Positions 19,496 to 55,383 of a stretch of DNA of 64,000 nt are shown piece by piece; position 1 is the first letter of the stretch, and each line of letters starts with the position of its first letter. The position numbers were made by a program, and so were the translations under genes. Origin of the DNA: Pocillopora verrucosa (taxonomy: Eukaryota; Cnidaria; Anthozoa; Scleractinia; Pocilloporidae); contig NC_089318.1 in the NCBI RefSeq assembly GCF_036669915.1, positions 15,167,628-15,231,627 of the forward strand. The letters run 5' to 3'. The notes under the pieces are model-generated. The model made no database searches and was not told where the DNA came from. It worked only from the letters and a program-made list of their open reading frames with translations.

Positions 19496-19942
19496 GTTCG
19501 GGAATGGCATCCGACACCAGTGAAACTCGTTAGCCATCTTGAGCTTTAATTATAGCAATTCTTCGATGAGCCCTTCAATTCCGTCTTTCGCTCGAATTTC
19601 GTAGTGTAACTCTAAATGTAGGATTATTTATCGACGTCTTTGGCAGCAGAGAGAATGTAATACGGGACAAGTCATGCGAATTAAGTGGTGTTACACAACT
19701 TTGCATGATGTCACGTACTGTGTTATAAGGTCCAAATCGGAGTAAGACGGCTATTCCCTATGTGAATATTCAACAGAAAGTGCCGATAAAATCAATATCA
19801 ATCGATAAACTCTATCTAGATATGTATAAAAATGGTAGAGTAGAAGCTATATTTACTAAAGTTTGTGTGTTCATCTTCATATAGAGTATATATTCAGTGG
19901 AAAGCTGTGGACACTTTACTGACTCATTTCATTGAGTGAACT
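19496..19942 (+). promoter_or_regulatory. Type A upstream region of TRAF copy 1
   Basis: Shared with 26690-27264, 38575-39015 and 42870-43458. The most conserved block is 19718-19775 (TGTTATAAGGTCCAAATCGG, then AGTAAGACG and CTATT-CCCTATGTGA). A TATA-like TATATTTA lies at 19849-19856, about 90 bases before the ATG. Compared with copies 2 and 3, the stretch between block and TATA is shorter and the CRE (TGACGTCA) present there is missing. Confidence 0.55.
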
Positions 19943-22900
19943 ATGGTTGTCACAATCGACGCAACGGTGGATACTGATATGAAATTCGTAGACAGAGTAG
20001 ACGAGAGGCTCAATTGCCCGATCTGCAAGAAGGTTTTCGATGAGCCCTGGCAGACATCATGTGGACATCGATTTTGTAGGGATTGTCTGGAACGTGTTTT
20101 AGGGTTGGTAGAAATTTATCTTTGACTAGTTATTTCTTATCCACTCCTGCTTTCCGCCCGCAACGAAAGCGCTTCAGAAAAAATTGAAATCTGCGTTATT
20201 TACATTTCTATTTGACGGCTGAAAGTGTCCATTTACAGGTGTAAATGAAACCACTACTTCCGACATACACCCAACACTTTCTCTGCCTCGGATGGGAGAA
20301 GCTATCTGGTTCTGTCGAATTAGGATATACTAAGAATAGGTGCTGAATGAAATAATGGATTTTATAGTTATAGTTAACTTCTAATTTTCTCTTTCAGACA
20401 AGAAGACCCAAGATGTCCGAAAGACGGTGAATCAATTTCAAGGCAGCAATCTTTTAGGGATAAATGCTGTGAGAGAGAAGTTCTTAATCTCCAGTGTTTC
20501 TGCCGATTTAATAAAAAGGGATGCGATTGGAAAGGGGAGCTCAGACATCTAAAGGTAATCAGTTTAAAATTTGCATGCACCTTAATCGATCTACCCAAAT
20601 AATGCGACGTAGTCAACTTGCTTGCCTTCAAATCTTAAAATACAGCCTTTGGTTGGTTGAAATCTGCAAAATTTCAGGCAATTAACTCTAATTTTGCTTG
20701 GCTAAGATGGCCGTGAGGTATATCTCGCCGCCGGAAGGTGCAAAATCTTCGAAAAGCTTCTAGAAAATGCAATAACCATGGTTGGTCACGCACGCAAACA
20801 TGTTGCGAAATTTTCAATCAAATTGTCTCGGCTAGAAATTTCTATCAAACACGACAGCCTAGAGAGGTGCTGAATTCTAATATTGAGGGAGCTTATTGCC
20901 CGTGTAACGATAAAACATAGAGATTTCTATTTAAAACTTTAAGACTATCCCAGAAAAACTCATAATTCAAATGATAAGAGTGGCGTGACTTCCTAACACT
21001 TCTAAATGTAAATACCTGCCTGCAAGTCACAACTGAGGTGTGAAGTAGCAAGAAGAAGTAAAAAATAGAAAAAAAATTACTACGCAAAAGCATATTTTAA
21101 AATAAACTGTTATTTAAGCTTCATGCTATTTATTTTAACAGGCTCACGAAGATAGCTGTCAGCACGGTAATGTGAAATGTCAAGCGTGCGGTGAAACTGT
21201 GGAGAGGAGACAGCTCACAGCGCACAGGGAACAAGATTGTATCAACAGGGCAGTGGCGTGTACTTACTGTGGTGGTAAAGTTCGGCATAGCAATATGAAG
21301 GTAAGATGATCAGCTCCATCGTTAAAACAAAAACAAATTATGAAAATTAAATTTTATTTTAAATCTATATCTTCAAGAAACCGATACGGATTAACACTGA
21401 CATGCTGGACTTTTGTCTCAAAATATGAAGACTGTAGAGAAATACCAGTTGAGGTTCACGTATATGTACATGAAGTTTATATTTTCGAAATTTACATCAG
21501 TTTGGTTTGGTCTGATATGAACAAGGTGTAAATAATATAATCATATCGTCTATACTTCATAAAAGCTCAACTTGACCTCAACTTATATTTTATATCTTCT
21601 AAAGGACCATTTGGATATCTGCCCTAAGTTTCCAATCCATTGCTTCTTGAACTGTGGTGAAGAAGGTATACCAAGAGACATGATGAAAGAACACATGACC
21701 ACACGTTGTCTTAGAGCTGAACATCTATGTCCTTTCAGTGCTCATGGCTGTGAATTTAAGGTTAGCTGTTTACTTCTTATCTATCTGTTTGATCTTTCGT
21801 CCCAAAATATGATTTATAAATATCTGAGCGAAAAAGGATCTAAGAGCAGAGAATAGCTTATCGGACCCAACGTAAAGACCACCTTGTGCAATTTGTATTG
21901 CCACGATCTAAATCAGTTTTTCTTTTTCTACAGGGCACTAAACAAACAATCGATCAACACATTGCTGAGAATATCAAGTCTCATCTTAAAATGATGAGCT
22001 ATTCAAGCCATGAATGTAACGAGAAATCAAAACAGATGGAAGAGAAGATATATCTTCTAGAACAAGAAAAAAGTGCTTTAGAACATCAACTACAAAATCA
22101 AGCAGAGGTGTTGGCAGCTGCAAGACAAAACATACAAACGCAACAGACAAAATTATCCCACGTAGAAAACTCCATCGTCGAACAAAAGAGGACAACTGAG
22201 AAACTGCTTGCCGATTTGAAGGTTTTTGAGGCATCTAGAACTAAAGGGGATGTTGTCTCGTCTCAGATGGAAGAAATAATGAACACTCTACGAGAACACG
22301 AGAAGGAGGTGAGTAGTCTTCAGGGTGAAGTGGCTCGTTTGAAATTATCCCCTGCCATGCCGAAAGGTGCGAGTAACTACCGTCCAAAATCCGACGTGTT
22401 TGTCACTCGTGAGTCCGAGCGCCGGCTAGACAGGAATGAGCACCAACTAGCACTGCACGACATTCAATTGTCCGATCATGATATGCAGATTCAAATGCTG
22501 GAGGCTACATCGTATAATGGCACCTACTTTTGGAAGATCGACCGCTACAGCCAACGCTTCCAAGAGGCTGTTACTGGAAAGACTCTATCTATTTACAGCC
22601 CTCCTTTCTACGTAGGACGATTTGGGTACAAAGTATGTGCTCGTCTCTACCCCAATGGAGACGGCATTGGCAAAGGAACGCATTTGTCAATGTTCTTTGT
22701 TGTCATGAGGGGTGAATACGATGCTTTATTACCTTGGCCGTTTCTCCAAAAGGTCCACTTTCGACTGATAGACCAGGACAGGATCCGGGACGCGTATGAT
22801 GCGTTTCGCCCTGAGCCTAACAGCTCAAGCTTTAAAAGACCCACATCAGACATGAACATAGCATCTGGCTGCCCGACATTTATTTCTCACATGGAACTGA

Positions 22901-22986
22901 GGCAAGGTGGCTATATTCGGAACGATACAATGTTTATCAAAATAACTGTAGATACCACTGGTCTGCAAGGAGATATGTGGCAGTAA
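19943..22986 (+). CDS. TRAF3-like RING/zinc-finger/MATH adaptor, copy 1
   Basis: Five exons, 19943-20103, 20398-20554, 21142-21300, 21605-21760 and 21934-22986, give 561 residues with GT-AG introns and consistent phases. Exon 1 has most of a RING (CPIC, then CGHRFCRDC) and exon 2 its last ligands (CPKD, as in TRAF RINGs) and the start of the TRAF zinc fingers (CFCRFNKKGCDWKG). Exons 3 and 4 continue the fingers. Exon 5 has a coiled coil (about 110 residues from MEEKIYLLEQEKSALEHQL) and a MATH/TRAF-C domain with SYNGTYFWKI, GRFGYKVCARLYPNGDG, FFVVMRGEYDALLPWPF and MNIASGCPTF, closest in memory to TRAF3. Known TRAFs bind TNF-receptor or adaptor tails as trimers through TRAF-C and act as ubiquitin ligases through the RING, in NF-kB and innate signalling; a cytosolic role is inferred. 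A frame beginning at 21886 reads through intron sequence and is not used as a start. Confidence 0.92.
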
Positions 22987-27264: not shown

Positions 27265-30236
27265 ATGGTTGTCGCAATCGACACAATGGTGGATACTGAT
27301 ATGAAATTCGTAGACAGAGTAGACGAGAGGCTTAATTGCCCGATCTGTAAGAAGGTTTTCGATGAGCCCTGGCAGACAACATGCGGACATCGATTTTGTA
27401 GCGACTGTCTGGAACGTCTTTTAGGGTAGGTCGAAATTTTTCATTGACTACTTATTTGTTATCCACTCCTGCTTTTCCGTCCGAAACGAAGTCGCTTCAG
27501 AAAAATTGAAATCTACTTTAATTTCTATTTGACGGCTGAAAATGTCCATTTACAGGTGTAATTGAAATCACTACTTCCGAGTTACTTCCGACACTTTTTC
27601 CGCCCCGGATGGGAAAAGCCATCTGGTTCTGTCGACTTAAGATATGCCAGAATGAGTGTTGAATGAAATTATGAATTTTATAGTTATATTTAACTTCGAA
27701 TTTACTCCTTCAGACAAGAAAACCCAAGGTGTCCGATAGAGGGTGAATCAATTTCAAGACAGCAATCTTTTAGGGATAAATGCTGTGAGAGAGAAGTTCT
27801 TAATCTTCGATGTTTCTGCCGATTTAATAACAAAGGATGCGAATGGAAAGGGGAGCTCAGATATCTAAAGGTATTCAGTGCAAAATTTGCATGTACCTTT
27901 ATCGATCTACCCAAATAGAGTGGCGTTGTGAACTTGCCTGCCTTCAACGCTTGAAAAACAGCCTTTGATTGAAATCTGCAAACTTTCAGGCAACGAACTC
28001 TAATTTTGCTTGCCTAAGACGTACGTGAGGTACATCTCGCCGCCGAAAGGTGTAAAATCTTCGAAAAGCTTCTAGAAAATGCAATAAACATAGCTGGTCA
28101 CGCACGCAAACATATTGCGAAATTTTCAATCAACGGTCTCGGCTAGAAATTTCTGGCAAAAATGACAGCATAAACAGGTGCTGAATTCTGATGTTGTGAG
28201 AGCTTATTGCCTGTGTAACGATGAAAGATACAGACCTATTTAAAACTTTAAGACTATCCCAGACAAACTCTTATAATTCACATGATTAGAGTGGCGTGAC
28301 TTCCTAAGACTTCTAAAATGTAAATACCTGCCTGCAAGTCACAAGTGAGGTTTGAAGTAGCGAGAAGAGGTAAAAATAAAACAAAATTCAAAAGCAGAAA
28401 ACATATTTTACAATTAAATGTCATTTAAACTCCATACTCTTTATTTTAACAGACACACGAAGATAGCTGTCAGTACGGTAATGTAAAATGTCAAGCGTGC
28501 GGTGAAACTGTGGAGAGGAGACAGCTCACGGCGCACAGGGAGCAAGATTGTATCAACAGGGCAGTGGCGTGTACCTACTGTGGTGGCGAGGTTCGGCATA
28601 GTTATATGAAGGTAAGATGATCAGCTCCATTGTTAAAACAAAAAACCGATATGGATTGACACTGACATGCTCGAAGTTTGTCTCAAAATATGAAGACTGA
28701 AGAGAAATACCAGTTGAATTTCACGTCAGCACATACATGTATATGTAGTTTACATCTTCGAAAATATACATCAATTTGGTTTGGTCTGATATGAGCAAGG
28801 TGTTAATAACTAAATATGATCGTATCGTCTATACTGCATAAAAGGTCAACTCGACCCCAACTTATATTTTATATCTTCTAAAGGAACATTTGGATGTGTG
28901 CCTTAAGTTTCCAATCCAGTGCTTCTTGAACTGTGGTGAAGAGGGTATACCAAGAGACATGATGGAAGAACACGTGTCCACACGTTGTCTTAAAGCTGAA
29001 CATCTATGTCCTTTTAGTGTTCATGGCTGTGAATTTAAGGTTAGTTATTTACTTTGTCTATTTGTTTGATCTTTCGTCCTAAATGTCTGAGCATACAAGG
29101 ATCTAACAGAAGAAAATAGCATATCGGACCCAATATAAGACCACCTTATGTAGTTTGTATTGCCACAATCCAAATAAGTTTTTCTTTTTCTTTTTCTACA
29201 GGGCACTAAACAAAATATCGATCAACACGTTGCTGAGAATATCGAGTCTCATCTTGAAATAATGAACTATTCAAGCAATGAATGTAACGAGAAATTAAAA
29301 CAGATGGAAGAGAAGATATATCGTCTAGAAAAAGAAAAAAGTACTTTGGAACATCAACTACAAAATCAAGCAGAGGTGTTGGCAGCTGCAAGACAAAATA
29401 CACAAACGCAACAGACAAAACTGTCCCAAGTAGAAAACTCCATCATCGAACAAAAGAGGACAACTGAGAAATTGCTCGCCGATTTAAAGGTTTTTGAGGC
29501 ATCTAGAACCAAGGGAGATGTTGTCTCGTCTCAGATGGAAGAAATAATGAACACTCTGCGAGAACACGAGAAGGAGGTGAGCAGTCTTCAGGGTGAAGTG
29601 GCCCATTTGAAATTATACCCGAGTAACTCTTGTTCAAAATCCGACGTGTCTCTCACTCGTGAGTCCGAGCGCCGACTGGACAGGAATGAGCACCAACTAG
29701 CTCTGCACGACATTCAATTGTCTGATCATGATATGCAGATTCAGATGCTGGAGGCTACATCGTATAATGGCACCTACTTTTGGAAGATCGACCGCTACAG
29801 CCAACGCTTCCAAGAGGCTGTTACTGGAAAGACTCTCTCTATTTACAGCCCTCCTTTCTATGTAGGACGGTTTGGGTACAAAGTATGTGCTCGTCTCTAC
29901 CCCAATGGAGACGGCATTGGCAAAGGAACGCATTTGTCAATGTTCTTTGTTGTCATGAGGGGTGAATACGATGCTTTATTACCTTGGCCGTTTCTCCAAA
30001 AGGTTCATTTTCGACTGATAGACCAGGACAGGATCCGGGACGCGTATGATGCATTTCGCCCTGTGCCTAACAACTCAAGCTTTAAAAGACCCACATCAGA
30101 CATGAACATAGCATCTGGCTGCCCGACGTTTATTTCTCATATGGAACTAAGGCAAGGTGGCTATATTCGGAACGATACAATGTTTATCAAAATAACTGTA
30201 GATACCACTGGTCTGCAAGGAGATATGTGGCAGTAA
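27265..30236 (+). CDS. TRAF3-like RING/zinc-finger/MATH adaptor, copy 2
   Basis: Exons 27265-27425, 27714-27870, 28453-28611, 28884-29039 and 29202-30236 give 555 residues. Layout and phases are as in copy 1: RING (CPIC, CGHRFCSDC, CPIE), TRAF fingers, coiled coil, MATH. The last RING ligand differs: copies 1 and 3 have CPKD or CPTD whereas this copy has CPIE, so zinc or structural contacts at that point may change. The linker between coiled coil and MATH is six residues shorter (PSNSCSKSD instead of PATPKGASNYRPKSD). Over the last 185 residues it differs from copy 1 at only two positions (EPNS to VPNN). All splice sites read well and no stop interrupts the exons, so it should be functional. 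Role as described for the family: receptor-proximal signalling adaptor and probable ubiquitin ligase. Confidence 0.92.
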
Positions 30237-31323: not shown

Positions 31324-31329
31324 ATTATG

Positions 31330-32280: not shown

Positions 32281-32286
32281 ATTATG

Positions 32287-33057
32287 TTGTAACTACTTAA
32301 TCTCGTTGAGAAAAAGATTAGCTCATTTTGTTTACTGAGTCCCTTCCCTTTAGCTTTTGCTGTCTTCTGATTAAAGCTACCAAAATATATCATGAGAACG
32401 AAAGAGAGTCTACCTGGTTACGTTGCAAAGCAATGGTCCACACGGGAGAGAGGAGAGCTTGCGTCATGTACGGAATGACAAAAACAGCCTAGATCTTCAG
32501 ACACATGGGGAGATATGGGCTTTGATACTCTGGAAATAAGTAAAGGCCCTGGACTGGGCCTAGTGAATTGGTAAAACCTAATGGATCAGTTAGCTCATGT
32601 ACAGGACATAACAAGGAAACAAATTAGCGGTGTAACCCTTGTAACATCAAGAGATAGCAAGCGCCTAATCAGAAAGAGAACCAACGAGTCATAGGATGAT
32701 TAGAGCTCATTCCAACTAAAATCACTTTAGACTAAATACTCTGTTATACAACTACACTCCAACTAGTGAAGTTGATGACGAGAGAAAATATGCATGTACT
32801 TGTAAGACATTTTGCGTATGAAAGGTACCTCGGCATAATAAGTCCATGATCATTCGAAGCGTGACTAAAAAGGTTGGAGCTAACAACATCAACTGTTAAT
32901 GACCCATGGAAAAAAACGTCTTGGTGAGATTAACGACTTTTGTTTAAAAAAACTGTTTCATTGGCAGAACAATCTTGCCATGAAAGAACGTTCATGAAAG
33001 TACGCATGTGGACATCCCCCAGCGGTCAATGAGCTGCAGCGAGGGGCGGTACTTGTG
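32287..33057. repeat. Downstream spacer of TRAF copy 2, middle part
   Basis: Matches 47480-48231 behind copy 3 and in part 23440-24160 behind copy 1 (CGGAATGACA, CCTAATGGATCAGTTAG, CAAATTAGCGGTGTAACCC). No gene recognised. Confidence 0.7.
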
Positions 33058-33232
33058 CAATATTAGTATAGGTAATCACATGATTTCGAGTGCAATTTGG
33101 TAAAAATAAGCACGAGTAAATTTTTTCAGACTAACGAGTCCGTAGGGTGAGTGCAATTTGTGGTCTAACGAATGCTTATTTATTCCAAATTGTACGAGAA
33201 AAATCATGTGATTACGTGTTAATAATATACAT
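33058..33232. mobile_element. Small MITE-like insertion, also at 48232-48425
   Basis: Inverted ends: TATTAG-TATAGGTAATCACATGATT on the left and AATCATGTGATTACGTGTTAATAATA on the right, with a second inverted pair inside (GCAATTTGG...AAATAAGCA and TGCTTATTTATTCCAAATTG). Copy 1's spacer has no such insertion at the corresponding place after GTGCCATACTG (about 24166). Confidence 0.65.
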
Positions 33233-33898
33233 GGAAAATACGAGATAGCTTATCATAGTTATCCAGAAGCAAAGCGCGCGCACTAAGTGTAAAAATTTTT
33301 AATTCAAATCGTGCGTTCGGTCAAAACAACCGCGCACGATAATATTGACAATAATATACAAGGATATTTTCGAATCTTTAAGGCGCAAAAAAGTTCAAAG
33401 TCTGGCTAAACAGTTAAAGGAATTGTTCAGTCTGTGTCTGAATCACTTTCGATGAAATGGAATCGTCGTTTGCGAGGTTTAATCATGTTTGTTTTTAATT
33501 TCGGCGTAGAATCGCTAATTCTCGATCTCCTTGGCAATTCCCTTCTTTAAACACCGCTTTTTCCAAACCGACGACCAAACAGCAGTGCTTTTTATAGTGT
33601 TTTCGTTGTTAGAGCTGTTTTTCAGGTGCTGTATTGCTGGCTATTGTTTGCTCGTAATTTTCAGCGTGTCCAAATGTTGCGACATCCAAGGCTCGCATTT
33701 GATTGGCTATCTGTGAGCTTTTTGATTATTGACCAATAAGAATGTCTAGTTTGTTACTTCTTTGCACTGAATTAACCATCTTCTGTTTTGAATCACCTGA
33801 AAACTGCATTAATCCTAGCCAATCAGAATCGAGTAATTTTTTCATATATATTATTAAAAGGGTAAAAGTGAAGATGGTAACTTGAGTAACAGCAGGAA

Positions 33899-33938
33899 TT
33901 AAAGTAGTAATAGTACCACTAGTAGTAGTAGTAGTAGT

Positions 33939-34015
<77 letters not shown>

Positions 34016-34110
34016 TGGTAGTGGTAGTGGTAGTGGTAGTGGTAGTGGTAGTGGTAGTGGTAGTAGCAGAAGTCGTTGAAGCAGCAGCAGCAGTAGCAAT
34101 AGCTATGAAA
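33899..34110. repeat. Expanded AGT/GGTAGT/CAG microsatellite
   Basis: Runs of AGT, then CAG (at about 33940-33968), AGT again and GGTAGT up to about 34062, then imperfect units. The long poly-Thr, poly-Leu and poly-Val frames on both strands are artefacts. The tract is shorter behind copy 1 and deleted behind copy 3, where the sequence jumps from GCGCGCATCAAGTGC (about 48475) to ATCCTTTTTCTTGTC. Confidence 0.95.
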
Positions 34111-39487: not shown

Positions 39488-39866
39488 ATGCGCAGAGAGA
39501 ATTAAAAGCACGTAAAGACTCTAATGCCAAGGAAAAGTTAAGGGTCGTTGAGGAACACTAAAGGTTCGTAAAGAGAATTAACGGCGCGTAAAGATTGATT
39601 GTGCGTAAAGAATGGTAAAGGTTCGTAAAGAACAGTGGGTAAAGATGCGTAAAGAATATTAAAGACGCGTAAAGTGTTAAAAGCGAAATTGGTCAAAATA
39701 CCTCGGTAATTATACTGGAGATGAATGAGCCATAATTATTTCACTTCTTTAAGTATTTCTCCAAATAGAAATTGGTTAATTATATCCATCTTGATCCTTA
39801 TCCTTTACGAACATTTAATATCCTTTACGCAGTCTTTACGCTTTCTCTGCATTAACGCATCTTTAC
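39488..39866. mobile_element. Foldback element with CGTAAAG units
   Basis: Left side: GATGCGCAGAGAG, then many CGTAAAG units (GCGTAAAGA, TTCGTAAAGA). Right side is the inverse: CTTTACGAACATT, CTTTACGCAGTCTTTACG, TGCATTAACGCATC. Multiple short units in opposite orientation are typical of foldback transposons. It lies in former intron 1 of the TRAF relic. Confidence 0.6.
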
Positions 39867-40280
39867 GGAACGCGGAACTTGTCGTGAATGAAACCACTAT
39901 GTGCGACACTTTTTCCGCCTCGGATGTGAAAAGCCATCTGGTTCTGTCGAATTGGGATATACCAGGAGTAAGTGCTGAATGGCAAATGATGGTTTTATTT
40001 TCTCCATCAGACAAGATGACCCGAGATGTCCGATAGACGGCGGATCAATTTCAGGAAAGCAATCTTTTAGGGTTAAATGCTGTGAGAGAGAAGTTCTTAA
40101 TCTCCAGTGTTTCTTGCCAAACGGTTTTTGTGGTTTAGTTGGTCAAATTCCCTTAGTCGTGTGCAAGGTTTGCATAGTGCAGTTTCTTTTTATCTATTAT
40201 CCTGAAATTTAGATCAGTTATTTATTGTTTCAAAAACCAAGCTCCCGAGCCAATCTTCAATTATTTGGATATCTTTTATA

Positions 40281-42069
40281 ATATAAGTCAGTTTTCAAAA
40301 AACCAGTTAGATCATCGTTGTTGACTGTTGATCATCTATGATGATCTGACGGTCTCTCGATAATTGAAAATACTTGTTAATTAAATAAGACAGCTTGACC
40401 CAGTCTTTCACGATGCTTTTCTAATAGTATTAGTTTCATGAAACCTTTTTGAAATTTTATATATATTTTTTGCCTTCTCACAAAAAAGATAATATCTAGA
40501 ATAAGGAAAAAAATCAAGCAAATTTCCCTATTTCTCTCTCAGTGAAAAACCTTGTTCATCGTTTCTAATAACTTTTGGTATTCATTTCCTTGGGGCAACT
40601 CAATCTTGATGTCACGAAAGTGAGGCAAGTAATAACGCACACCGTGAATAGCATTTCATCAGGTACGTAAACTGTGATGCAAAGAGCTTCTCTTGAAATA
40701 TCTGAGGGAACTGTGTGAGCAGGTGATATTTACCGAAGAAGTTAAGATATGATAGATCTATTCGGGCATGATTTTAACCAATTGCAGGTTTAAACTGTTC
40801 CATTTTTTTTCAGCACTCAAAATTTTATCCGGCTATATGAGGCCTTGGATTCTTGCTGAAGCAGTTTAAACTGACCTTATCTCGTCGGCAAAACTCTCAC
40901 GGTTTCCGCAATCTCAATTGACAAAAAGATGCTTTGCGAAGCAGGTCACTTTGTGATAATTAAAACATACTATTAACAACTAATCCGACCTGAATCGTCA
41001 CCAGAGCGAAGTTGAATTATGTAGATATGCGTAGTAACATGCACGTGCTATCATTTAAAGCCTAGATCGACTTAGTGAAGGATAATTAATACCCTCAATT
41101 TGATACGAACAAGCGGTAATACCATAATTATTAGTAAAATATTCTTTTAGTGCCCTTAATAACATATGTTTTCTCAAATAATCTAAACTTGCTGATATAT
41201 CGTTAAGTGCAAGATGCACGTACTGTCATTGCGTGAGCGCTTGAAATATCTTGACCTTTCTGTTCCAATGCACTGATCACGTCATTTGCAAAGATTACAC
41301 AAGCAAAGTCATTTGTTGAACGAGTATAGACCTTCAGCAAAATTTCTTATTCGCTTCCCTAACGCAGCTTAAACGGGATGTTATGAAAATGACGCGGGTC
41401 CTTAAACACAGACGAGAGTATTTTTACTCTGTATATAGAAAAACACCAAGAGTCAATCTCAGTCGACCAAAAGATGCTCTGTGGAGCAGGTCACGCTGCG
41501 ATAAGTAAAACATACTATTAACGACTCATCAGACCCGACTCGTTACCAGAGCGAAGTTGAATTATGCACGTACTGTCATTTAAAGCCTACACCGACTTAG
41601 TGAAGGATAATCAATTCCCTCAATTTGATACGAATAAGCGGTAATTGACCAAAAGATGCTCTGTGGAGTAGGTCACACAACTAATCCGACCTGAATCGTC
41701 ACCAGAGCGAAGTTGAATTATGCACGTGCACGTGCTATCATTTAAAGCTTAGATCGACTTAGTGAAGGACAATCAATTCCCTCAATTTGATACGAATTAG
41801 CGGTAATAACATAATTGTTTGTAAAGTATTATTTTAGTGCCCTTAATTACATATGTTTTCCTAAATAAGCTAAACGTGCTGATAGCACGTACTGTCATTG
41901 CGTGAGCGCTTGAAATATCTTGACCTTTCTATTCCAATGCACTGATTACGTCATTTGCAACGATTACACAAGCAAAGTCATTTGTTGAACGGGTGTAGAC
42001 CTTCAGCAAAATTTCTAAGCAAGAATCTCTTACCAGAAAAGTAGGATAAAGGCTTTTCAGAGGTAAACC
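40281..42069. repeat. Spacer and repeated type B upstream modules
   Basis: Positions 40330-40860 match 25970-26560 and 50880-51390. Then come partial type B modules at about 40860-41340, 41460-41640 and 41645-42069, the last one leading into the orphan RING exon. CRE-like TTACGTCA is at 41945-41952; the first partial module has TCACGTCA near 41278. The modules are head-to-tail and unequal in length, as expected of local tandem duplication. Confidence 0.65.
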
Positions 42070-42224
42070 ATGGTTTTCATAGTCGACGGAAAGTTAGAAA
42101 CAAAATTGGTCGACGGACTAGATGAGAGGGTTAAATGTTCGATCTGTAAGAGCAATTCCGACGAGCCTAGACAAACGTCATGCCGACAACGCATTTGTAG
42201 AAACTGTCTGGAGCTCTTTTTTTG
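42070..42224 (+). CDS. Orphan type B RING exon with open frame and intact donor
   Basis: A 155-base exon, open from ATG, ending in phase 2 at donor GTATGT (42225). It encodes KLETKLVDGLDERVK, CSIC, SDEPRQTSC, RICRNC. The histidine of the usual CGH is missing (CRQRIC), so a normal RING fold is doubtful. The nearest acceptor with a matching phase is exon 2 of TRAF copy 3 at 43901, so it could act as an alternative first exon, skipping that gene's own RING exon. No type B exon 2 follows locally. It could equally be a decaying relic. Confidence 0.45.
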
Positions 42225-43458: not shown

Positions 43459-46425
43459 ATGGTTGTCACAATCGACGCAATAGTGGATACTGATATGAAA
43501 TTCGTAGACAGAGTAGACGAGAGGCTTAATTGCCCGATCTGTAAGAAGGTTTTCGATGAGCCCTGGCAAACATCATGTGGACATCGATTTTGTAGGGATT
43601 GTCTGGAACGTCTTTTAGGGTAGGTAGAAATTTATCATTGACTACTTATTTCTTATACACTCCTGCTTTTCGTCCAAAATAAAATCACTTCAGAAAAATT
43701 GAAATTAGCTTTATTTAAATTTCTATTTGGCAGCTGAAAGTGTCCTTTACGGGCGTGAATGAACCATCACTTCCGAGTTACGTCCGACGCTTCCTCCAAC
43801 TCGGATGGGAAAAGCCATCTGGTTCTGTCCACATAAGAATAAGCGCTGAATGAAATAATTAATTGTACGGTTTTAGCTAACTTCGAATTTTCTCCTTCAG
43901 ACAAGAAGACCCAAGATGTCCGACAGACAGTGAATTAATTTCAAGACAGCAATCTTTTAGGGATAAATGCTGTGAGAGAGAAGTTCTTAATCTCCAGTGT
44001 TTCTGCCGATTTAATAACAAAGGCTGCGATTGGAAAGGGGAGCTCAGACATCTACGGGTAATTATTGAAATATTTCCATGCACCTTAATCGTACCCAAAT
44101 AGGGTGGCTTTGTGAACTTGCCTGCCTTCAACACTTAAAACGCGGCTTTTGGTTGAAATCAGCAAACTTTCGTGTAATTAACTCTAATTTTGCATGGTTA
44201 AGACGTACGTGAGGTGCATCTCGTCGCCGAAAGGTGCAAAATCTGCGAAAAACTGCTAGAAAGTACAATAACCTTGGCTGGTTACGCACGCAAACATGCT
44301 GCGAAATTTTCAATCAACGGTCTCGGCTAGAAATTTCTAGCAAACATGACAGCCTAAACAGGTGCTGAATTCTGATGTTGTGAGAGATTGCTGCCCGTGT
44401 AACGATGAGATTTAGAGATTGCTATTTAAAACTTTAAGACCATCCCAGACAAGCTCTTACAATTCATACAGTACGAGTGGCGTGACTTCCTATGCCTGAA
44501 ATAGCGAATAGAAGTAAAAAATAAAACAAAATTACAAGACAGAAAACATATTTATAATTAACTGTCATTTAAGCTCCGCGCTATTTATTTTAACAGACTC
44601 ATGGAGATAGCTGTCAGTATGGTAATGTGAAATGTCAAGCGTGCGGTGAAACTATGGAGAGAAGACAGCTCACGTTGCACGGGGAGCAAGATTGTATCAA
44701 CAGGGCTGTGGCCTGTACATACTGTGGTGGTGAAGTTCGGCATAGCAATATGAAGGTAAGTTGATCAGCTTCATATTTAAAACAAAAAAAACTATGCAAA
44801 ATCTGTATCTTTAAGAAAGCGATATGGATTCACACTGACATGCTCGACGTTTGTCTCCTAATATGAAGACTGTAGAGAAATGCCAGATGATGTTCACGTC
44901 AGCACATACAAGTACATGAAGTTTATATTTTCGAATTATACATCAATTTGGTTTGGTCTGGTATGAACAAGGCATATCGTATCGTATCGTTTATACTGCA
45001 TAAAAGCTCAACTTGACCTCAACTTATATTTAATATATTTTAAAGGACCATTTGGATGTCTGCCCTAAGTTTCCAATCCAGTGCTTTTTGAACTGTGGTG
45101 AAGAAGATATACCAAGAGACATGATGGAAGAACACGTGACCACACGCTGTCTTAAAGCTGAACATCTATGTCCTTTCAGTGTTCATGGCTGTGAATTTAA
45201 GGTTAGTTATTTACTTTTTGTCCATTTTGTTTGATCTTTCGTTCCGATATATGATTTAGTGTCTGAGCGAACAAGGACCTAAGAGCAGAAAATAGCGTAT
45301 CAGACCCAATATAAAAACCTACTTATGTAATTTGTATTACCACGATCAAAATCAGCTTTTCTTTTTCTACAGGGCACTACACAAACAATCGATCAACACA
45401 TTGCTGAGAATATCGAGTCACATCTTGAAATGATGAGCTATTCAAGCCATGAATGTAACGAGAAGTCAAAACAGATAGAAGAGAAGATATATCGTCTAGA
45501 ACAAGAAAAGAGTGCTTTGGAACATCAACTACAAAATCAAGCAGAGGTGTTGGCAGCTGCAAGACAAAACATACAAACGCAACAGACAAAATTTTCCCAC
45601 GTAGAAAACTCCATCATCGAACAAAAGAGGACAACTGAGAAACTTCTTGCCGATTTGAAGGTTTTTGAGGCATCTAGAACGAAAGGGGATGTTGTCTCTT
45701 CTCAGATGGAAGAAATAATGAATACTCTGCGAGAACACGAGAAGGAGATGAGCAGTCTTCAGGGTGAAGTGGCTCGTTTGAAATTATCCCCTGCCACGCC
45801 GAAAGGTGCGAGTAACTACCGTCCAAAGTCTGACGTATCTGTCACTCGTGCATCCGAGCGCCGGCTGGACAGGAATGAGCACCAACTAGCTCTGCACGAC
45901 ATTCAATTGTCTGATCATGATATGCAGATTCAAATGCTGGAGGCTACATCGTATAATGGCACTTACTTTTGGAAGATCGACCGCTACAGCCAACGCTTCC
46001 AAGAGGCTGTTACTGGGAAGACTGTATCTATTTACAGCCCTCCTTTCTATGTAGGACGGTTTGGGTACAAAGTATGTGCTCGTCTCTACCCCAATGGAGA
46101 CGGCATTGGCAAAGGAACGCGTTTGTCAATGTTCTTTGTTGTCATGAGGGGTGAATACGATGCTTTATTACCTTGGCCGTTTCTCCAAAAGGTCCACTTT
46201 CGACTGATAGACCAGGACAGGATTCGGGACGCGTATGATGCGTTTCGCCCTGAGCCTAACAGCTCAAGCTTTAAAAGACCCACATCAGACATGAACATAG
46301 CATCTGGCTGCCCGACGTTTATTTCTCACATGGAACTGAGGCAGGGTGGCTATATTCGGAACGATACAATGTTTATTAAAATAACTGTAGATACCGCTGG
46401 TCTGCAAGGAGATATGTGGCAGTAA
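43459..46425 (+). CDS. TRAF3-like RING/zinc-finger/MATH adaptor, copy 3
   Basis: Exons 43459-43619, 43901-44057, 44597-44755, 45046-45201 and 45373-46425 give 561 residues, the same length and phases as copy 1. RING: CPIC, CGHRFCRDC and CPTD. Fingers continue through CQACGETMERRQLTLHGEQDC and FLNCGEEDIPRDMMEEH. The coiled coil is slightly altered (KQIEEKIYRLEQEK) and the MATH domain differs from copy 1 at only three positions in its last 185 residues (KTVS, GTRLS, TAGL). No stop or splice defect is visible, so I take it as functional. An orphan RING exon 1.4 kb upstream (42070) could splice to its exon 2 in phase. Family role as for copy 1. Confidence 0.92.
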
Positions 46426-48231
46426 ATCCTTGCCTTTTGCAACCTCTCAGGTCTTACATAAGACCTAAGTGCCTGGAACAGACAAAACCTTAGCCCAACG
46501 GTTTTTGTGGCTTAATCGTGTGCAAAATTTGCATGGTGCAGTTTGTTGTTATCTATTATCCTGAAATGTGGATATGTCATTTATTGCTTGAAAAACCAAG
46601 CTCCCGAGTCAATCTTAAATTATTTGGATATCTTTTGTAATATAATATCAGTTAGTTTTCAGGCACTAGCGAAAGTGGCTCGTGTAGGTCCATGAAAAGT
46701 TACCTGAATTATAAGATATTTATAAAGTGTATTCGAAAGGCAAAAAACATAGTATTTATTTATGGAAAGAAAGTTTATGGAAACAAAGAAATAAATATTC
46801 AACTTCAAAGTCCAAAATGTAATTTATTTCAGATAAATTCATTTTCAGTGGGCAACATTAGAAACAACCTTTTTCCAAAACATGTGCTTTAACAGTGACC
46901 GATTACAGAGACGTTTTTCCCTGAAGAAAATGTGTCATCTAAAAATGAGTTTTTGGAAAAAAATATGATATAATATTTATAACTTCAAATATAATGAGTT
47001 GTGTTTTTAAAGCGGCCTGGATAATATTTATAACACTTTATATTTCTTATGACTCTTAGATAATGTTAACTGTATATTAAATGTACAACTGGATATTTAT
47101 TTATTATTTGTAAATTTGTATATAGCTAAAAATATACAAATAAATCGTTTTGAAAGAATATTGATATGAAAATTGACACAAAATAAAAGAGAAGTAAGGA
47201 TACATTCACGACAACTTTGATTCGGTATTTCAAACTCATTATAGTACAAGGTGTGTTGTGAATTTTCCAAAGACGTTATGAGTGAAAGAGTGTGGCTCAA
47301 AACCATCCACTTCGTCGTGTTGAGTAGCCTCAAAAATCTTGAAAGCTGGGGCACCTGGGGTCTTACCTCCTTGCCCTTGAAAGGTCGGGAAAAGTTTGAC
47401 AGGTCTCAGGTGAGAGGAAAGACAGCATAATCCGCCTAGACCTTCATTTAGGGGGAAGTTAGGATTTTTCAGCATTATGTTGTAACTACTTCATCTCGTT
47501 GAGAAAAAAATCAGCTCATTTTGTTTACTGGATCCCTTCCGCTTAGCTTTTGCCGTCTTCTGATTAAAGCTACCAAAATATATCATGAGAAAGAAAGAGA
47601 GTCTACCTGGTTACGTTGTAAAGCAATGGTCCACACGGGAGAGAGGAGAGCTTGCGTCATGTACGGAATGACAAAAACAGCCTAGATCTTTAGACACATG
47701 AGGAGATATGGGCTTTGATAGTCTGGAAATAAGTAAAGGCCCTGGACTGGGCCTAGTGAATTGGTAAAACCTAATGGATCAGTTAGCTCATGTACAGGAC
47801 ATAACAAGGAAACAAATTAGCGGTGTAACCCTTCTAATATCAAGAGATTGCAAGCGCCTAATTAGAAAGAGAACCAACGAGTCATGGGATGATCAGAGCT
47901 AATTCCAACTAAAATTACTTTAGACTAAATACTCTGTTATACAGCTACACTCCAACTAGTGAAGTTGATGACGAGAGAAAATATGCATGTACTTGTATGA
48001 CATTTTGCGTATGAAAGGTACTTCAGCATAATAAGTGACTAAAAAGGTTGGAGCTTACAATATTAACTGTTAATGAATTATGGGAAGAATCGTCTTGGTG
48101 AGATTAACGACATTTGTTTAAAAGACTTTATCATTGGCAGAACAATCTAGCCATGAAAGAACGTTCATGAAATTACTCATATGGACATCCCCAGCGGTCA
48201 ATGACCTGCAGCAAGGGGCGGTACTTGTGCA

Positions 48232-48425
48232 ATATTAGTATAGGTAATCACATGATTTCGAGTGCAATTTGGAAAAAATAAGCACGAGTAAATTTTTTAT
48301 TAAATATTAAATTTCAGACTAACGAGTCCGTAGGGTGAGTGCAATTTGCGGTCTTTGAAAAAATTAACGAGTGCTTATTTATTCCAAATTGTACGAGAAA
48401 AATCATGTGATTACGTGTTAATAAT
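48232..48425. mobile_element. MITE-like insertion, copy of 33058-33232
   Basis: Same ends (GGTAATCACATGATTTCGAG and AATCATGTGATTACGTG) and the same position in the spacer as at 33058, with a small extra AT stretch (TATTAAATATTAAAT) inside. It was therefore present before the two spacers separated. Confidence 0.65.
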
Positions 48426-49309
48426 GTACATGAAAAATACGAGATAGCTTATCATAGTTATGCAGAAGCAAAGCGCGCGCATCAAGTGCAAAAAAATCCT
48501 TTTTCTTGTCACTAGTGACTAGGCTATGAGGACGATCACCAAAGGTTATCTAGGATGCATAAAATGGAACTTTTTTCTCCTTTGGTAGACATAAGGACTC
48601 AAAAAAAAGCGTTTCAGCTTATAGGATAAGACTAAAAGAATGGAGGCCTATGCTAAACAAAGAGGTTCTGATATCAACACAGCCCAAACCCAACGCACCG
48701 ACACCGATCGCAGTCAATGCAAACCCACTTAAATTTGTAGACTACAGGCCAGTAATATACGTTGACCACTGGACAGACAGATCGTATGTCTATTATTATC
48801 ATTATTATTGTTAAAATAACAACTACCACCTAGTAGTCGAATTACTTGTTCAGGATACATAATTTACATTAATTTAAAAAGCATATGTTACAAAAATATA
48901 AATCGTATAGTAAAAATTTAAATATAAACAATTAAAAATATTAATAAAAATAATCCTACTTTCAAAGGAATCCTACGTTTCAAAGGAATTGCCAATGGTC
49001 TCAATTACAGTGACCTCGTTTGGTTTCCTGGCACAAAAAGATTTCAAATAAAGGCCTGGAAAGCTGGTTGTGCTTTGGCTACCTCCTACGTGGAATTAAA
49101 ATCAGTGTTTCTGCTGACCTAGTGTATACAGTTTATCTTCTTGTGAATTCATTGTTTCTATGGTGATCTCGACCATCCCCATCACTCATTTGTCGATCGT
49201 TGGCTGACCGTAGGTTTAAAAATGCGTATGACCATGTCATAGGGTGATCCTACATGTTGAGACGAGACGTATTCACCGATACGTCCCGGGGGAAGTAAAA
49301 AAAAAAAAC

Positions 49310-50340
49310 GCATTGATACTATATGCCCCCATTTTCCCGTCATTTAGAGCGAGTAGTAGTAGTAGTTCCTTTTTGTGCGACATCATGTAAGGGCAAGGAA
49401 AGGGAGAATACTCGCCAACTAAATATTTAATTGAGCTGGGCCAAGGATCTTAATCAACGGCAGGATGCCCCAAGATTTGTAAGATTTTCCTGCTGGTTAC
49501 TAATTTGAAAATACCTTTTGCACTGTGTATGAAAAAAAAAATCCCTAAGAGTCCCTTACTCTTATCTCAAGGAGACACCATATCCGGCGCGTCTAGGTAC
49601 TATTGTTATTTACTTCCCCGACGTAACTCAAACGGGATGTTATGAAAATGACGCAGGTTCCAAAACATAGATGAGAGTATTTTTACTCTGTATACAGAAA
49701 GACACCAACAGTTTCCTATTTCAACCACGGGGAAGCACCATATTCAGCGTGCCTAAGTTCATTTCTCTGACGTATCTCAAGGGGAACTTGATTGATTGAT
49801 TGATACTATAAGCCCCCATTTTCCCGTCATTTGAAGCCAACAGTTTATAGTTAATCATTTGGTTTTTTTCTGTGTGTGACATCATGTAAGGGCAAGGAAA
49901 GGGATAATACTCGCAAATGAAATCTTTATAGAGCTGAGCCAAGTATGGATGCCTCAAAATTTCGTAAGATTTTCCTGCTGGTTACTAATTTTATGATACC
50001 TTTTGCACTATGTACGAAAAAAAAAACCCCATAGTCCCTTACTCTTATCTCAGGAAGACATCATATCCGGCGCGTCTATAAGGTACATTTGTTACTCACT
50101 TCCCTGATGTAACTCAAACGGGATGTTATGAAAATGACGCAGGTCCCAAAACACAGATAAGAATATTTTTACTCTGTATACAGAAAGACACTCAGAGTTT
50201 CCTATTTCAATCGCGGGGAAGTACCATATTCAGCATGCCTAAGTACTTTTGTTGTTCATTTCTTTGACGTAACTCAAACGGGACTATACGCACGTCACTG
50301 TGACGCACAGACGAGACTATTTCGTCGGACACGTGCAATT
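49310..50340. repeat. Two tandem copies of a spacer module
   Basis: 49310-49790 and 49805-50340 both run from GATACTATA...CCCCCATTTTCCCGTC through GGCAAGGAAAGGG, a GTAACTCAAACGGGATGTTATG block and CAGTTTCCTATTTCAA-type end. Single copies occur at 25100-25600 and 35285-35830. GATTGATTGATTGATAC sits at the junction near 49790. Confidence 0.75.
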
Positions 50341-51916: not shown

Positions 51917-52060
51917 ATGGTTGTCATAGTCGACGGAAAGTTAGAAACAAAATTCGTCGACGGACTTGATAAGGGGCCCAAATGCCCGATCTGCAAAAGC
52001 ATTTCCGATGAGCCCTAGCGGACATCGCTTTTGCAGAAACTGTCTGGAACTCCTTTCTGG
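51917..52060 (+). pseudogene. Orphan type B RING exon, deletion and stop
   Basis: Begins MVVIVDGKLETKFVDGLD, CPIC, SDEP, then TAG. Compared with the intact exons, bases covering the TSCG part are deleted just after the stop (from CCC TAG to CGGACATCG), and the later Cys residues fall out of frame. The donor GTATGT at 52061 survives. No exons 2-5 follow before the next type B module. Confidence 0.75.
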
Positions 52061-52755
52061 GTATGTATAAAGTCTATTCTTTAACTGCATAACTCTCTTC
52101 CGCCGAAAATTAGGTAGGTTGTTAAAAATGTAATACCTTTACCCTTTGAATTTATGTATTTATTGTAGTGATAAATTTTATCCAACTAGATAAGGCCTTG
52201 AGTTTTTTTGCTGAAGTAGTTTTAACATTAATATACAAGGAAACCCGCGGGAGACCTTATCCCGTAGACAAAACTCTCACGATTTCTGCAGTCTCAATTG
52301 ACAAAAGATGCTTTGCGAAGTAGGCCACGTTAGGATGATTAAAACATACTATTAACAACTAATCCGACCTGACTCGTCACTAGAACGAAGTTGAATTATG
52401 TAGAGATTGCGCAGTAATATGCTCGTAATGTCATTAAAAGCCTAGATCGACTTAGTGAAGGATAGTCAATTCCCTCAATTTGATACAAATGAGCGGTAAT
52501 ACCGTAATTTTTATTAAAATATTCTTTCAGTGCCCTTAACGATATATGTTTTCCTAAATAAGCTAAATTTGCTGATACATCGTCTGATGCATTGCGTAAT
52601 CCTTTAAATATATTTACTTTTCTATTGCAACATTGACGTCATTTAGCGATTACATAAGCAAAGTCATTTGTTGAACGAGTATAGCTCTTCAGCAAAATTT
52701 CTAATCAAGGATCTCTCATTAGAAAAGCAGGATAAAGGCCTTTCTGAGGAAAAAC
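52061..52755 (+). promoter_or_regulatory. Intron-like remnant and type B upstream module of TRAF copy 4
   Basis: From about 52180 the type B module repeats (TAATCCGACCTGACTCG, GTCATTTGTTGAACGAG). CRE TGACGTCA at 52634-52641, about 115 bases before the ATG. Confidence 0.45.
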
Positions 52756-52903
52756 ATGGTTTTCAAAGTCGACGGAAAGTTAGAAACAAAATTCGTCGAC
52801 GGACTAGATGAGAGGCTCAAATGCCCGATCTGCAAAAGCATTTTCGATGAGCCCTGGCATGTGGACATCGCTTTTGTGGAAACTGTCTGGAACTCCTTTT
52901 AGG
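52756..52903 (+). pseudogene. RING exon of TRAF copy 4, frameshifted
   Basis: Reads KLETKFVDGLDERLK, CPICKSIFDEPW, then a 7-base deletion (GACATCA compared with the other exons) puts CGHRFCGNC out of frame and the frame ends at a TAG near the exon end. The donor GTATGT at 52904 is intact. Exon 2, which carries the last RING ligands, is absent from the following intron sequence, which passes directly from intron-1-like to intron-2-like sequence. A RING-bearing product from this exon is therefore excluded. Confidence 0.8.
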
Positions 52904-53254
52904 GTATGTATAGAGTCTATTTTTTAACTCTTTTTCGCCGAAAATTAGGTAAATTCTACCAAACAAAGCAACCCAGACTAGTCACGCATGCTAATATGTT
53001 GCGAAATCGACACGATCACGGTCTCGGCTGAAGTATTACGCAAAGGTCACACGTAACTTCAAAACTAAGGAGTTGGATTTCAAGCGGTAAATCTATGATA
53101 TTCAAATGCAAACAGTAACGTGACCTCGCCAAAAATCTAAAGGTGTAATAGCCTGCAGGCAAGTGATTGTGAACCAGCGGGGAAAATAAAAAAAACCATC
53201 AGGAGGCACAGAAGTCAACAGTTCTTCAATGTTCCACACTCTTTGTTTTAACAG

Positions 53255-55383
53255 TTACACAATTTTAGCTGTCAGTACGGTGATGTGAAATGTCAAGCCT
53301 GTGATGAAACTGTGGAGAGAAGATACCTCAATATGCACAGGAATCGTGATTGTATCAACAGGGATGAGGCATGTACTTACTGTGGTGGTGAAGTTCGGCA
53401 TAGCAAAATGAAGGTACAATTATTAACTCCGTGGAAAAGACAAAACATAAGCAAATGCAAAATCACCATAACTAATTAACTAATGGATTAGCTCTGACAC
53501 GCTGCTAGACGTTTGTCGAAACTGACGCAAGGTCCGATACACAACTATTTACTTTGATAACAAACTGTCAGATTCGGGTCTATTTACCATTGTCATTCTC
53601 GCACTTCACTTCGGTTATTTCACTGGACAATACACCTACATCTATCAGCGTAGTGAAGCGTGACATGACTGTTGCAAAACAGTTCAATTTCGTATGGAAG
53701 TAGCTACATTAACGATCTCGTATTAAAGCTCAACTTGAACTCAACTTGTATTTATGTCTTTTAAAGGAAAATTTGAATGTCTGCCTTAAGTTTCCAATCG
53801 GCTGCATCTTAAACTGTGGTGAAGAATGTATTCCAAGAGACATGATGGGGGAACACTTGACCGCACGTTGTCTTAAGGCAGAACATATGTGTCCTTTCAG
53901 TGTTCATGGTTGTGCATTTCAGGTTAGTGGATAAATCCGTCTATTTGGTCTATCTTGTTGGAGATATTTTGCAAATGAGATACTGAAAAAAAAAAGGGGT
54001 AGGAGTTTCTAAAAGATACAGTGAGCCGAAATTTGTACTTTACAAAGGCAAAAAAGGATTTATTATTATTATTGAGTGAAAAAAAACATTGAATAGTAAA
54101 AAAGGGGAAACTATGGTCTGTTGGTAAAGGAAATAATCCTAAAATTTAAGAGCAAACAAGGGTCTACGAGCAGAAACAAACATCGAAAATGAAGATAAAC
54201 ATCAACATATGTGAGTTAAATTCTCAAAATCATAATCGCAAAGATACTTAGACGATTGTAATAATCTAAATTGACCGAATCTGATTATCGGATGATTTGT
54301 GGGACAAAAAAAAAATTATTTATACACTCTCTACAGGGCACTAAACAAATAATCGATCAACACGTTGCCGACGGTATTGAGTCTCACTTGGAAATGATGA
54401 ACCTCTCCAGTCATAAATGTGCCAAGATAACAAAACAAATGGAAGAGAAGATATGTCGTCTAGAAAAAGAAAAGAGTGCTTTGGAAAAGCAACTTCAAAA
54501 TCAAGCAGAACAGGCAGCAGCTGCAAGACAAAACATACAAACGCAACAGACAAAATTGTCCCACGTAGAAAATTTCATTCTCGAACTAAAGAGGACAGCT
54601 GAGAAACTGCTTGCTGATTTGAGAGTTTTTGAGGCATCTGGAACAATAGAGGATTTTGTCTCGTCTCAGATGGAAGAAATAATGAAAACGCTGCGAGAGC
54701 ATGAGAAGGAGGTGAACAGTCTTCAGGGTGAAGTGGCCCGTTTGAAGTTATCCCCCGCCACGCCGAAAGGTGCGAGTGATTACCAACCAAACCAAGGTGT
54801 GGGTCTCGCAAGTGAGTATGAGCGCCGACTAGACAGGAATGAGCACCAACTGGCATTACACGACATTCAACTGTCCGATCAAGATATGCAGATTCAAATG
54901 CTGGAAGCTACGTCGTATAATGGTACCTACATATGGAAAATCGACCGCTACAGCCTTCGCTTCCAAGAGACTGTTGCTGGAAAGACTCTATCTATTTACA
55001 GTCCTCCTTTCTATGTAGGTCGATTTGGGTATAAAGTATGTGCTCGTCTTTACCCCAATGGAGACGGAATTGGAAACGGAACGCATATGTCAATATTCTT
55101 TGTCGTCATGAGGGGTGAATACGATGCTTTATTACCTTGGCCGTTTCTCCAAAAAGTCCACTTTCGACTGATAGACCAAGACAGGATCCGGGACGTGAAT
55201 GATGCGTTTCGCCCTGAGCCTAACAGCTCAAGCTTTAAAAAACCTACATCAGACATGAACATAGCATCTGGCTTCCCGACTTTCATTTCTCATATGGAAC
55301 TGAGACAAGGTGGCTATATCCGGAACGATACTATGTATATCAAAATAAAAGTTGATAGCTGTGGTCTGCGAGGAGATGCGTAG
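53255..55383 (+). CDS. TRAF3-like copy 4, RING-less body (zinc fingers, coiled coil, MATH)
   Basis: Exons 53255-53413, 53767-53922 and 54337-55383 are open and join in phase. Exon 3 reads FSCQYGDVKCQACDETVERR and CTYCGGEVRHSKMK, exon 4 FPIGCILNCGEECIPRDMMG, exon 5 has the coiled coil (MEEKICRLEKEKSALEKQL) and a full MATH domain ending VDSCGLRGDA. It is more diverged than copies 1-3 (YIWKIDRYSLRFQETVAGK, GNGTHMSIFFV), so it is the oldest or least homogenised. First in-frame ATG in exon 3 is at 53285; the real start is unknown. If expressed it would be a RING-less TRAF, comparable in layout to vertebrate TRAF1. Absence of stops over about 450 codons argues for selection, but a recent loss of the RING cannot be excluded. 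Confidence 0.75.

Follow-up and report, generated by a model that had tools for sequence, protein, structure and literature searches.

The stretch of Pocillopora verrucosa DNA analysed here (contig NC_089318.1, positions 15,167,628 to 15,231,627; 64,000 nucleotides, hereafter the window) belongs to a pocilloporid TRAF3-like tandem array, which we consider very probably to have evolved under birth and death by the steps described below. The array is real, being neither a product of chance nor an assembly duplicate, and consists of intact and broken paralogues that differ in age and share one orientation. It extends over about 64 kb with five genes (g0–g4) and is thus larger than the initial annotation had it.

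Content and TRAF3-like identity of the array

The window contains three intact genes (g1, g2 and g3), a further gene (g4) that lacks a usable RING, one deletion relic and four broken RING first exons, one of these being that of g4; all lie on the + strand. The initial annotation had listed seven RING exons, four MATH exons and one deletion relic in one orientation, and all of them were found, the RING exons being three intact and four broken. Gene g1 (19943..22986) has exons at 19943-20103, 20398-20554, 21142-21300, 21605-21760 and 21934-22986 and encodes 561 aa; g2 (27265..30236; exons 27265-27425, 27714-27870, 28453-28611, 28884-29039 and 29202-30236) encodes 555 aa, and g3 (43459..46425; exons 43459-43619, 43901-44057, 44597-44755, 45046-45201 and 45373-46425) encodes 561 aa. 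In each, the first exon carries the intact RING and the fifth the MATH domain; the fourth MATH exon is exon 5 of g4 (54337-55383). The five exons of g1, g2 and g3 have GT-AG splice sites, identical phases and zero stops, and comparison of the MATH domains in the three pairs gives 2, 3 and 5 nonsynonymous differences, in agreement with the shared phases and near-identical MATH domains described before. The earlier count of three complete genes holds within the window, but the whole array has a fourth, g0 (561 aa), at C7:15158902-15162472, 5-9 kb upstream of it. Genes g0, g2 and g3 can be aligned with g1 end to end.

Searching 40 kb upstream and 20 kb downstream with the g1 protein gave no match at E ≤ 1e-3 except g0, and the related RING-bearing protein P0029 gave one weak match in the flanking DNA, on the minus strand about 20 kb upstream (25% identity, E 5e-4). 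The intergenic block 3′ of g2 (32281..35805, + strand) is a duplicate of that 3′ of g3 (47474..50322, + strand), with 80-90% identity in three BLAST alignments. An Rfam scan of the window yielded 0 matches.

The TRAF3-like label is well borne out. Among the best 120 of 980 protein matches, the named proteins closest to g1 come from Pocillopora damicornis and Stylophora pistillata and bear the name 'TNF receptor-associated factor 3-like'. Against PDB, g1 scored 262 bits with TRAF3, 202 with TRAF2, 200 with TRAF1, 198 with TRAF5 and 117 with TRAF4, and the array joined human TRAF3 against human TRAF2 (98*) in a tree with these two as its human TRAFs. Pfam models found in g1 were PF21355, PF22486, PF02176 (two stretches) and RING models including PF21363 TRAF3_RING (27.9 bits, cut-off 26.9); the scan covered g1 and g4 exons 3-5, while g0, g2 and g3 were placed by alignment with g1, and the coiled coil was assigned by homology rather than by coil prediction. 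RING, TRAF zinc fingers, coiled coil and C-terminal MATH are thus predicted in one protein, as in a TRAF3-like adaptor. By analogy with TRAF3, g0–g3 most likely encode adaptor / E3-ligase proteins. Trimers of these would bind the tails of receptors or adaptors with their C-terminal MATH domains and relay the signal through the RING and zinc fingers. At the 17 positions that we take, with their numbering, from TRAF2 as the receptor-binding groove, 14 are invariant in g0–g4, the exceptions being 453 (g2), 469 (g0 and g4) and 471 (g0); MATH changes are not enriched there (3/17 groove positions vary, against 37/159 overall).

Separate copies and their mosaic history

Coral genomes are heterozygous and tandem arrays are difficult to assemble, which counts for an assembly artefact in which haplotypes of one or two genes, placed end to end, pass for copies. 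Intron divergence among g1–g3, however, is 10-20% (K 0.10-0.20), rising to 0.55-0.70 for g4 against the others, and for every copy a separate near-identical protein occurs in other samples: the 120 protein matches listed (of 980) include P0021 for g0 (98.6%), P0019 for g1 (96.7%), P0026/P0027 for g2 (99.0%), P0020 for g3 (96.7%) and P0028 for g4 (99.4%). Moreover, the g1-like P0001 and the g2-like P0018 of P. damicornis each lie on a contig of 770,980 bases, and allelic and tandem-duplicate Ks are very distinct in two corals according to the text of Noel et al. (PMC10236652). Because of the intron divergence and the close counterpart of each of the five genes, haplotype duplication, which the initial annotation had named as its refutation, was rejected and is left with hardly any probability. 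Total dN/dS among g1–g3 is 0.21-0.24 in 3/3 pairs. No lgn-tagged protein (taken as Logan) reached at least 90% identity to the query among the 120 listed for g1 and the 120 for g4, and no viral contig was confirmed as a source of relatives.

Tree comparisons separate two gene types. A single Pocillopora clade including g4 was rejected (AU p 0.0012), as was a grouping of g0 with Stylophora (p 0.0375), and g0–g3 group together outside Stylophora with support of 92/91, and 96/94 in a second tree. In the RING exon, g0–g3 and P. damicornis have an insert of 2 residues that Stylophora and the relics lack. P0029 groups with g4 (86/90, not starred), has 11 residues in common with g4 alone and a RING exon of the relic type, although over shared columns it is no closer to g4 (204/291 identities) than to g1 (207/291). 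Judged from these sequences, the beta type (that of g4) split from the alpha type (g0–g3) before the Pocillopora-Stylophora separation, and g0–g3 are placed as duplications within Pocillopora. The ancestral alpha/beta pair would thus predate the split of the two genera, and alpha would then have duplicated to g0, g1, g2 and g3 as head-to-tail units in the lineage of this genome, presumably via unequal crossing-over between repeated units.

Segments within a unit differ in age. The histories of g1–g3 segments conflict at p 2e-30 over nine segments and 2e-17 without a poorly homologous one, in a chi-square test that treats sites as independent; across five segments of the gene bodies alone the conflict is weak (p 0.034), and between the 5′ part and the coiled coil of the gene bodies it has p 0.001. 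Either sequence has therefore passed between the copies or the duplicated pieces overlapped, and the cause may be unequal crossing-over or gene conversion, between which the segment test does not separate.

A related question is whether gene conversion, beyond selection alone, has kept the MATH exons of g1–g4 similar, a reading to which we give slightly less than even chances. In its favour, dS among g1–g3 is 0.08-0.11 in MATH, whereas the coiled coil encoded by the same exon has 0.16-0.23, a drop that g0 does not show, and at silent sites g4 sides with g1 against g0 by 13:3 in MATH as opposed to 5:7 in the coiled coil. The silent-site counts are nevertheless small, the comparison weakens with g2 (11:5) and g3 (11:7), and a faster-evolving g0 would look similar. 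A run test fell below 0.05 in 2/6 pairs, of which one lies in MATH (g1-g3, p 0.03) and the other, g0-g2 (p 0.001), in the 5′ flank. Conversion is moreover held to be rare in corals in the text of PMC10236652, whereas the present array shows segment mosaicism, which may or may not stem from conversion.

Decay of the beta lineage

The four broken RING first exons are all of the beta type, unlike the RINGs of the complete genes. They are r37 (37595..37738), which has lost its start codon; r42 (42070..42222), with an open frame that lacks the RING histidine ligand; r51 (51917..52071), with a broken RING-core frame; and r52 (52756..52905), the former first exon of g4, likewise broken in the RING core, all on the + strand. 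The deletion relic (38556..40293, + strand) derives from an alpha gene: its 5′ flank (38556-39007) and a partial exon 2 reaching to 40114 are joined to 3′ flank from 40116, and by eye the junction 40114/40116 possibly has a short GCC microhomology. The initial annotation had read these relics as duplication intermediates. We rejected this, since the RING relics are what decay has left of the 5′ ends of an older type of paralogue, and the deletion relic is a decayed alpha gene. Because RING-bearing beta sequences exist elsewhere (P0029 and P0130), the relics and g4 seem to result from decay and not to mark steps of growth. The intact RING exon P0130 agrees with r52 at 33/34 residues before the broken place and 17/18 after it. 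The beta lineage would thus have shrunk, leaving four RING first exons as fragments, three ahead of later units and one ahead of g4, and the loss of RING frame and exon 2 would have left g4 unable to yield a RING-bearing protein.

Gene g4 (53255..55383, + strand) retains exons 3-5 (53255-53413, 53767-53922 and 54337-55383), open over 453 aa, while exon 2 and part of introns 1-2 are deleted between about 52951 and 52970. No RING was found in it, the first-exon frame being broken, exon 2 absent and the Pfam scan of exons 3-5 free of RING. In vertebrates, TRAF1 is the TRAF without a RING, and g4 could likewise still function, as a RING-less TRAF in competition with the RING-bearing copies, in the manner of TRAF1 or of a TRAF with its RING deleted (a dominant-negative decoy). 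Consistent with this, the splice sites of the open exons are intact, the MATH is conserved in the Pfam scan, dN/dS against g1–g3 is 0.26-0.35 and the g4-type cluster P0028 represents 136 sequences. A g4 without any start codon was also rejected, as in-frame candidate ATGs were found: splicing from the old r52 donor (exon end 52903) to exon 3 would put the ATGs at 52808, 52847 and 52859 in frame and so give the RING-less protein 15-32 new N-terminal residues, and internal ATGs also occur within exons 3-5. These candidates make the working-g4 and decoy readings somewhat likelier. Those three ATGs, however, sit behind the first ATG of r52, which reads only 48 codons in the window (P0131, 48 aa), and the same 1 kb has 18 ATG-to-GT joins that are in frame, whatever their quality, so chance is possible. 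One zinc-finger His is replaced by Asn in the alignment, and the form with a shortened C-terminus (g4, P0028 and P0043) has 9-10 extra derived residues, against 1-7 in the other 8 g4-type sequences, P0039 (7) being intermediate (11/11 sequences).

The open frame itself was dropped as proof of function. Simulated g4 copies were free of stops in 0/2000 cases at 0.28 changes per site and 1/2000 at 0.15, but the frame is uninformative if the decapitation is recent; since the intact r52 counterpart P0130 was found and the probability of no stop is 0.195 at 0.03 changes per site, openness no longer proves function. A working g4 is unlikely, and an early-stage pseudogene is the likelier reading. That the g4 form segregates with an intact RING-bearing form in living Pocillopora, and that a RING-less product from a shifted start within the old first exon acts as a decoy dampening the signalling of the four intact neighbours, is more doubtful still; if true, one array would carry both an enzyme and its inhibitor.

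Relation to known systems and meaning

A g4 product, if made, would keep MATH and have no RING, like TRAF1, but it may not exist, the tree places g4 on the TRAF3-like side, and the RING of g4 was lost within one lineage. A literature search for RING-less cnidarian TRAFs found nothing, and the main texts of PMC13044578 and PMC12005167 do not mention TRAF. Proteins built like those of the array, with RING, zinc fingers and coiled coil, are P0001 and P0018 of P. damicornis (94% identical to g1 and 95% to g2, respectively) and P0002 of S. pistillata (88% to g1), MATH being present in P0001 and P0002 while P0018 is partial. These records are single proteins, whereas the present locus is described as an array, with its relics and its alpha/beta history.

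Expansion of the same family in the same coral family was previously published: the text of PMC5730576 gives three TRAF3 copies in Stylophora pistillata against one in Acropora digitifera, although its passages on TRAF3 mention no array, exon relics or decapitated copy, and 'tandem' is used 0 times in the main text. Together with the duplication of g0–g3 within Pocillopora, this 3-to-1 difference indirectly supports the copy-number variation between species that had been anticipated. Tandem duplication and birth-and-death evolution are pervasive in Pocillopora and Porites according to PMC10236652, whose mechanism and genus match the present array and whose main text contains 'TRAF' 0 times. 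The text of PMC6662555 reports TRAF3 up-regulation in a sea anemone on Vibrio exposure.

The locus is a clear but ordinary example of family growth and decay by birth-and-death evolution, in a family whose expansion was already reported in the sister genus. It provides a well-resolved coral immune-adaptor array that allows the growth of alpha, the decay of beta and a mosaic history to be distinguished, and copy-by-copy markers for comparing array content across Pocillopora species, which are also useful for asking whether RING loss alters immune or symbiosis signalling.

Array content and separateness of the genes

In the 353-Mb genome (52 contigs) the window corresponds to C7:15167628-15231627, and the parts of the TRAF3-like array described in the initial annotation (three complete genes, a RING-less gene, RING relics and a deletion relic) were all recovered there on the forward strand. 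The complete genes g1 (19943-22986, 561 aa), g2 (27265-30236, 555 aa) and g3 (43459-46425, 561 aa) are stop-free and have five exons each, with identical exon phases and GT-AG splice sites throughout. The RING-less g4 (53255-55383, 453 aa) retains exons 3-5. Broken RING first exons occur at about 37595, 42070, 51917 and 52756, and the deletion relic, a partial exon 2 fused to 3′ flank that ends at 40293, represents an alpha gene with a deletion running from exon 2 to the 3′ flank, where alpha denotes g0-g3 and beta g4. The fourth complete gene, g0 (C7:15158902-15162472, 561 aa), lies 5-9 kb upstream of the window start; g0 apart, the g1 protein found no match at E ≤ 1e-3 in the 40 kb upstream and 20 kb downstream of the window.

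Between g0 and g1, an open frame at 4462-4884 matches the protein kinase domain PF00069 (53.8 bits); its PDB matches are weak, with a tyrosine-protein kinase receptor at the top. A few kb past the array, 60181-60993 matches the reverse transcriptase domain RVT_1 (67 bits) and is probably a retroelement remnant. The block after g2 carries a long GTA/GCA trinucleotide repeat (33904-34070), which is shorter in the corresponding block after g1.

The reading of the copies as haplotypes was ruled out by intron divergence (0.10-0.20 within g1-g3, and 0.55-0.70 for g4 against the others) together with copy-specific, near-identical counterparts. Among the 120 of 980 protein matches listed, each of the five genes has such a counterpart: P0021 for g0 (98.6%), P0019 for g1 (96.7%), P0026/P0027 for g2 (99.0%), P0020 for g3 (96.7%) and P0028 for g4 (99.4%). 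The closest named proteins to g1 in this set are from Pocillopora damicornis (94%) and Stylophora pistillata (88%), identities that point to a pocilloporid source, most likely a species of Pocillopora distinct from P. damicornis. The source contigs of P. damicornis P0001 (g1-like) and P0018 (g2-like, partial) are equally long, suggesting that g1 and g2 probably adjoin in that species too.

Alpha and beta lineages and the RING relics

In a 25-row tree, g4 and the proteins P0030, P0028 and P0031 fall outside the group of Stylophora and g0-g3; topology tests rejected one Pocillopora clade with g4 inside it (AU p = 0.0012) and also placement of g0 with Stylophora (p = 0.0375). Grouping of g0-g3 and their Pocillopora counterparts without Stylophora received 92/91 (unstarred) in this tree and 96/94 (starred) in a 17-row tree. 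The RING exons of g0-g3 and of both P. damicornis proteins carry a two-residue insert that Stylophora, P0029 and the relics lack. The g0 gene is a fast-changing copy; its MATH region has 41 private changes, one of them at a groove cysteine, versus 2 in g1, 6 in g2 and 8 in g3.

The RING relics are all of one type, which differs from the alpha RING. P0029 (395 aa, source tag lgn) has an intact RING of the relic type and is continuous across exon borders, indicating a spliced-transcript origin. It groups with g4 in the 17-row tree (86/90) and shares with g4 11 residues absent from g0-g3 and Stylophora; against this grouping, it agrees with g4 at no more of the shared columns (204/291) than with g1 (207/291) or g3 (212/291). 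Searched against the window flanks (40 kb before, 20 kb after), P0029 gave a single weak match on the minus strand, at 25% identity. P0130 (54 aa), from other samples, is an intact RING exon and matches r52, the former first exon of g4, at 33/34 residues before the break and 17/18 after. Together, P0029 and P0130 indicate that beta genes formerly bore a RING and that intact ones persist; judged by sequence, the RING relics are remnants of beta 5′ ends. The neighbouring relics r51 (51950-52060) and r52 (52790-52905) share the same break site in the RING core, with losses of different length.

Decay or function of g4

Read from its first ATG, the first exon of g4, r52 (52756-52905), is not in frame and terminates in a stop; at about 52951-52970 the sequence passes directly from intron 1 into intron 2, showing that exon 2 has been lost. 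In favour of a functional g4, exons 3-5 remain open, dN/dS relative to g1-g3 is 0.26-0.35, and in simulations at 0.28 changes per site, the length of the whole g4 branch, 0/2000 neutral copies stayed open. However, the RING loss is probably recent, as P0130 suggests, which makes the open frame weak proof; at 0.03 changes per site the retained fraction is 0.195. The old r52 donor would place three ATGs beyond the first (52808, 52847 and 52859) in frame with exon 3, predicting a RING-less protein with a short new N-terminus, but the first ATG reads 48 codons only, and in-frame ATG-to-GT joins of whatever quality number 18 in the same 1 kb. One zinc-finger histidine is also altered, and the form with a shortened C-terminus (g4, P0028 and P0043) carries 9-10 extra derived residues versus 1-7 in the eight remaining g4-type sequences, among which P0039, with 7, is intermediate. 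From these sequence features we judge early decay of g4 more likely than a working decoy. In other samples, g4-type genes have either the shortened C-terminus (P0028, P0043) or a full one (P0031-P0036, P0038, P0039), so that Pocillopora shows variation in g4, either within or between species.

Mosaic history and the wider TRAF family

Affinities among g1, g2 and g3 change along the unit: g1-g2 is the slightly favoured pair in the 5′ part, g1-g3 the favoured pair in the coiled coil, and g2-g3 the strongly favoured pair in the intergenic blocks (5.5-9% versus 17-20%). Heterogeneity across nine segments of g1-g3, with a tenth, overlapping segment excluded and sites treated as independent, gave a chi-square p of 2e-30, or 2e-17 once the 3′ flank 451-700, in which g1 has hardly any homology, was excluded; within the five gene-body segments p was only 0.034, and for the coiled coil against the 5′ part 0.001. 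Silent divergence within g1-g3 is lower in the MATH exon (0.08-0.11) than in the coiled coil (0.16-0.23), with no such drop against g0. Silent sites of g4 favour g1 over g0 by 13:3 in MATH but not in the coiled coil (5:7), the MATH preference over g0 being weaker with g2 (11:5) and g3 (11:7). A run-length test fell below 0.05 in 2/6 pairs (g0-g2 in the 5′ flank, g1-g3 in MATH). Gene conversion of MATH is plausible rather than shown; the authors of PMC10236652 consider conversion rare in corals.

Genome-wide, the MATH domain has no fewer than 62 matches, of which several lie in other clusters. In a 62-row tree including 15/57 MATH matches from outside the array, 12/12 C4 copies fall with human TRAF2, and the human TRAF3 side holds the array and one gene each on C6, C13 and C7 (8.37 Mb). 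Three TRAF2-like copies at C4:25.088-25.122 Mb (L016, L017 and L018), with last-exon DNA 92-96% identical and adjoining stretches 79-88%, form another recent array.

By homology to TRAF3, the alpha proteins would form trimers, use MATH to bind the tails of receptors or adaptors, and act via RING and zinc fingers. At the 17 positions that we take to line the MATH groove, 14 are invariant and the differences lie at 453 (g2), 469 (g0, g4) and 471 (g0); the groove is not enriched for variable sites (3/17 versus 37/159). Such differences between copies could shift partner choice.

A 3 to 1 expansion of TRAF3 in Stylophora is already on record (PMC5730576), and the published model for corals is tandem duplication with birth and death (PMC10236652). 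The present array is a clear new case, whose specifics are the layering of alpha and beta, a decapitated gene and a mosaic history.
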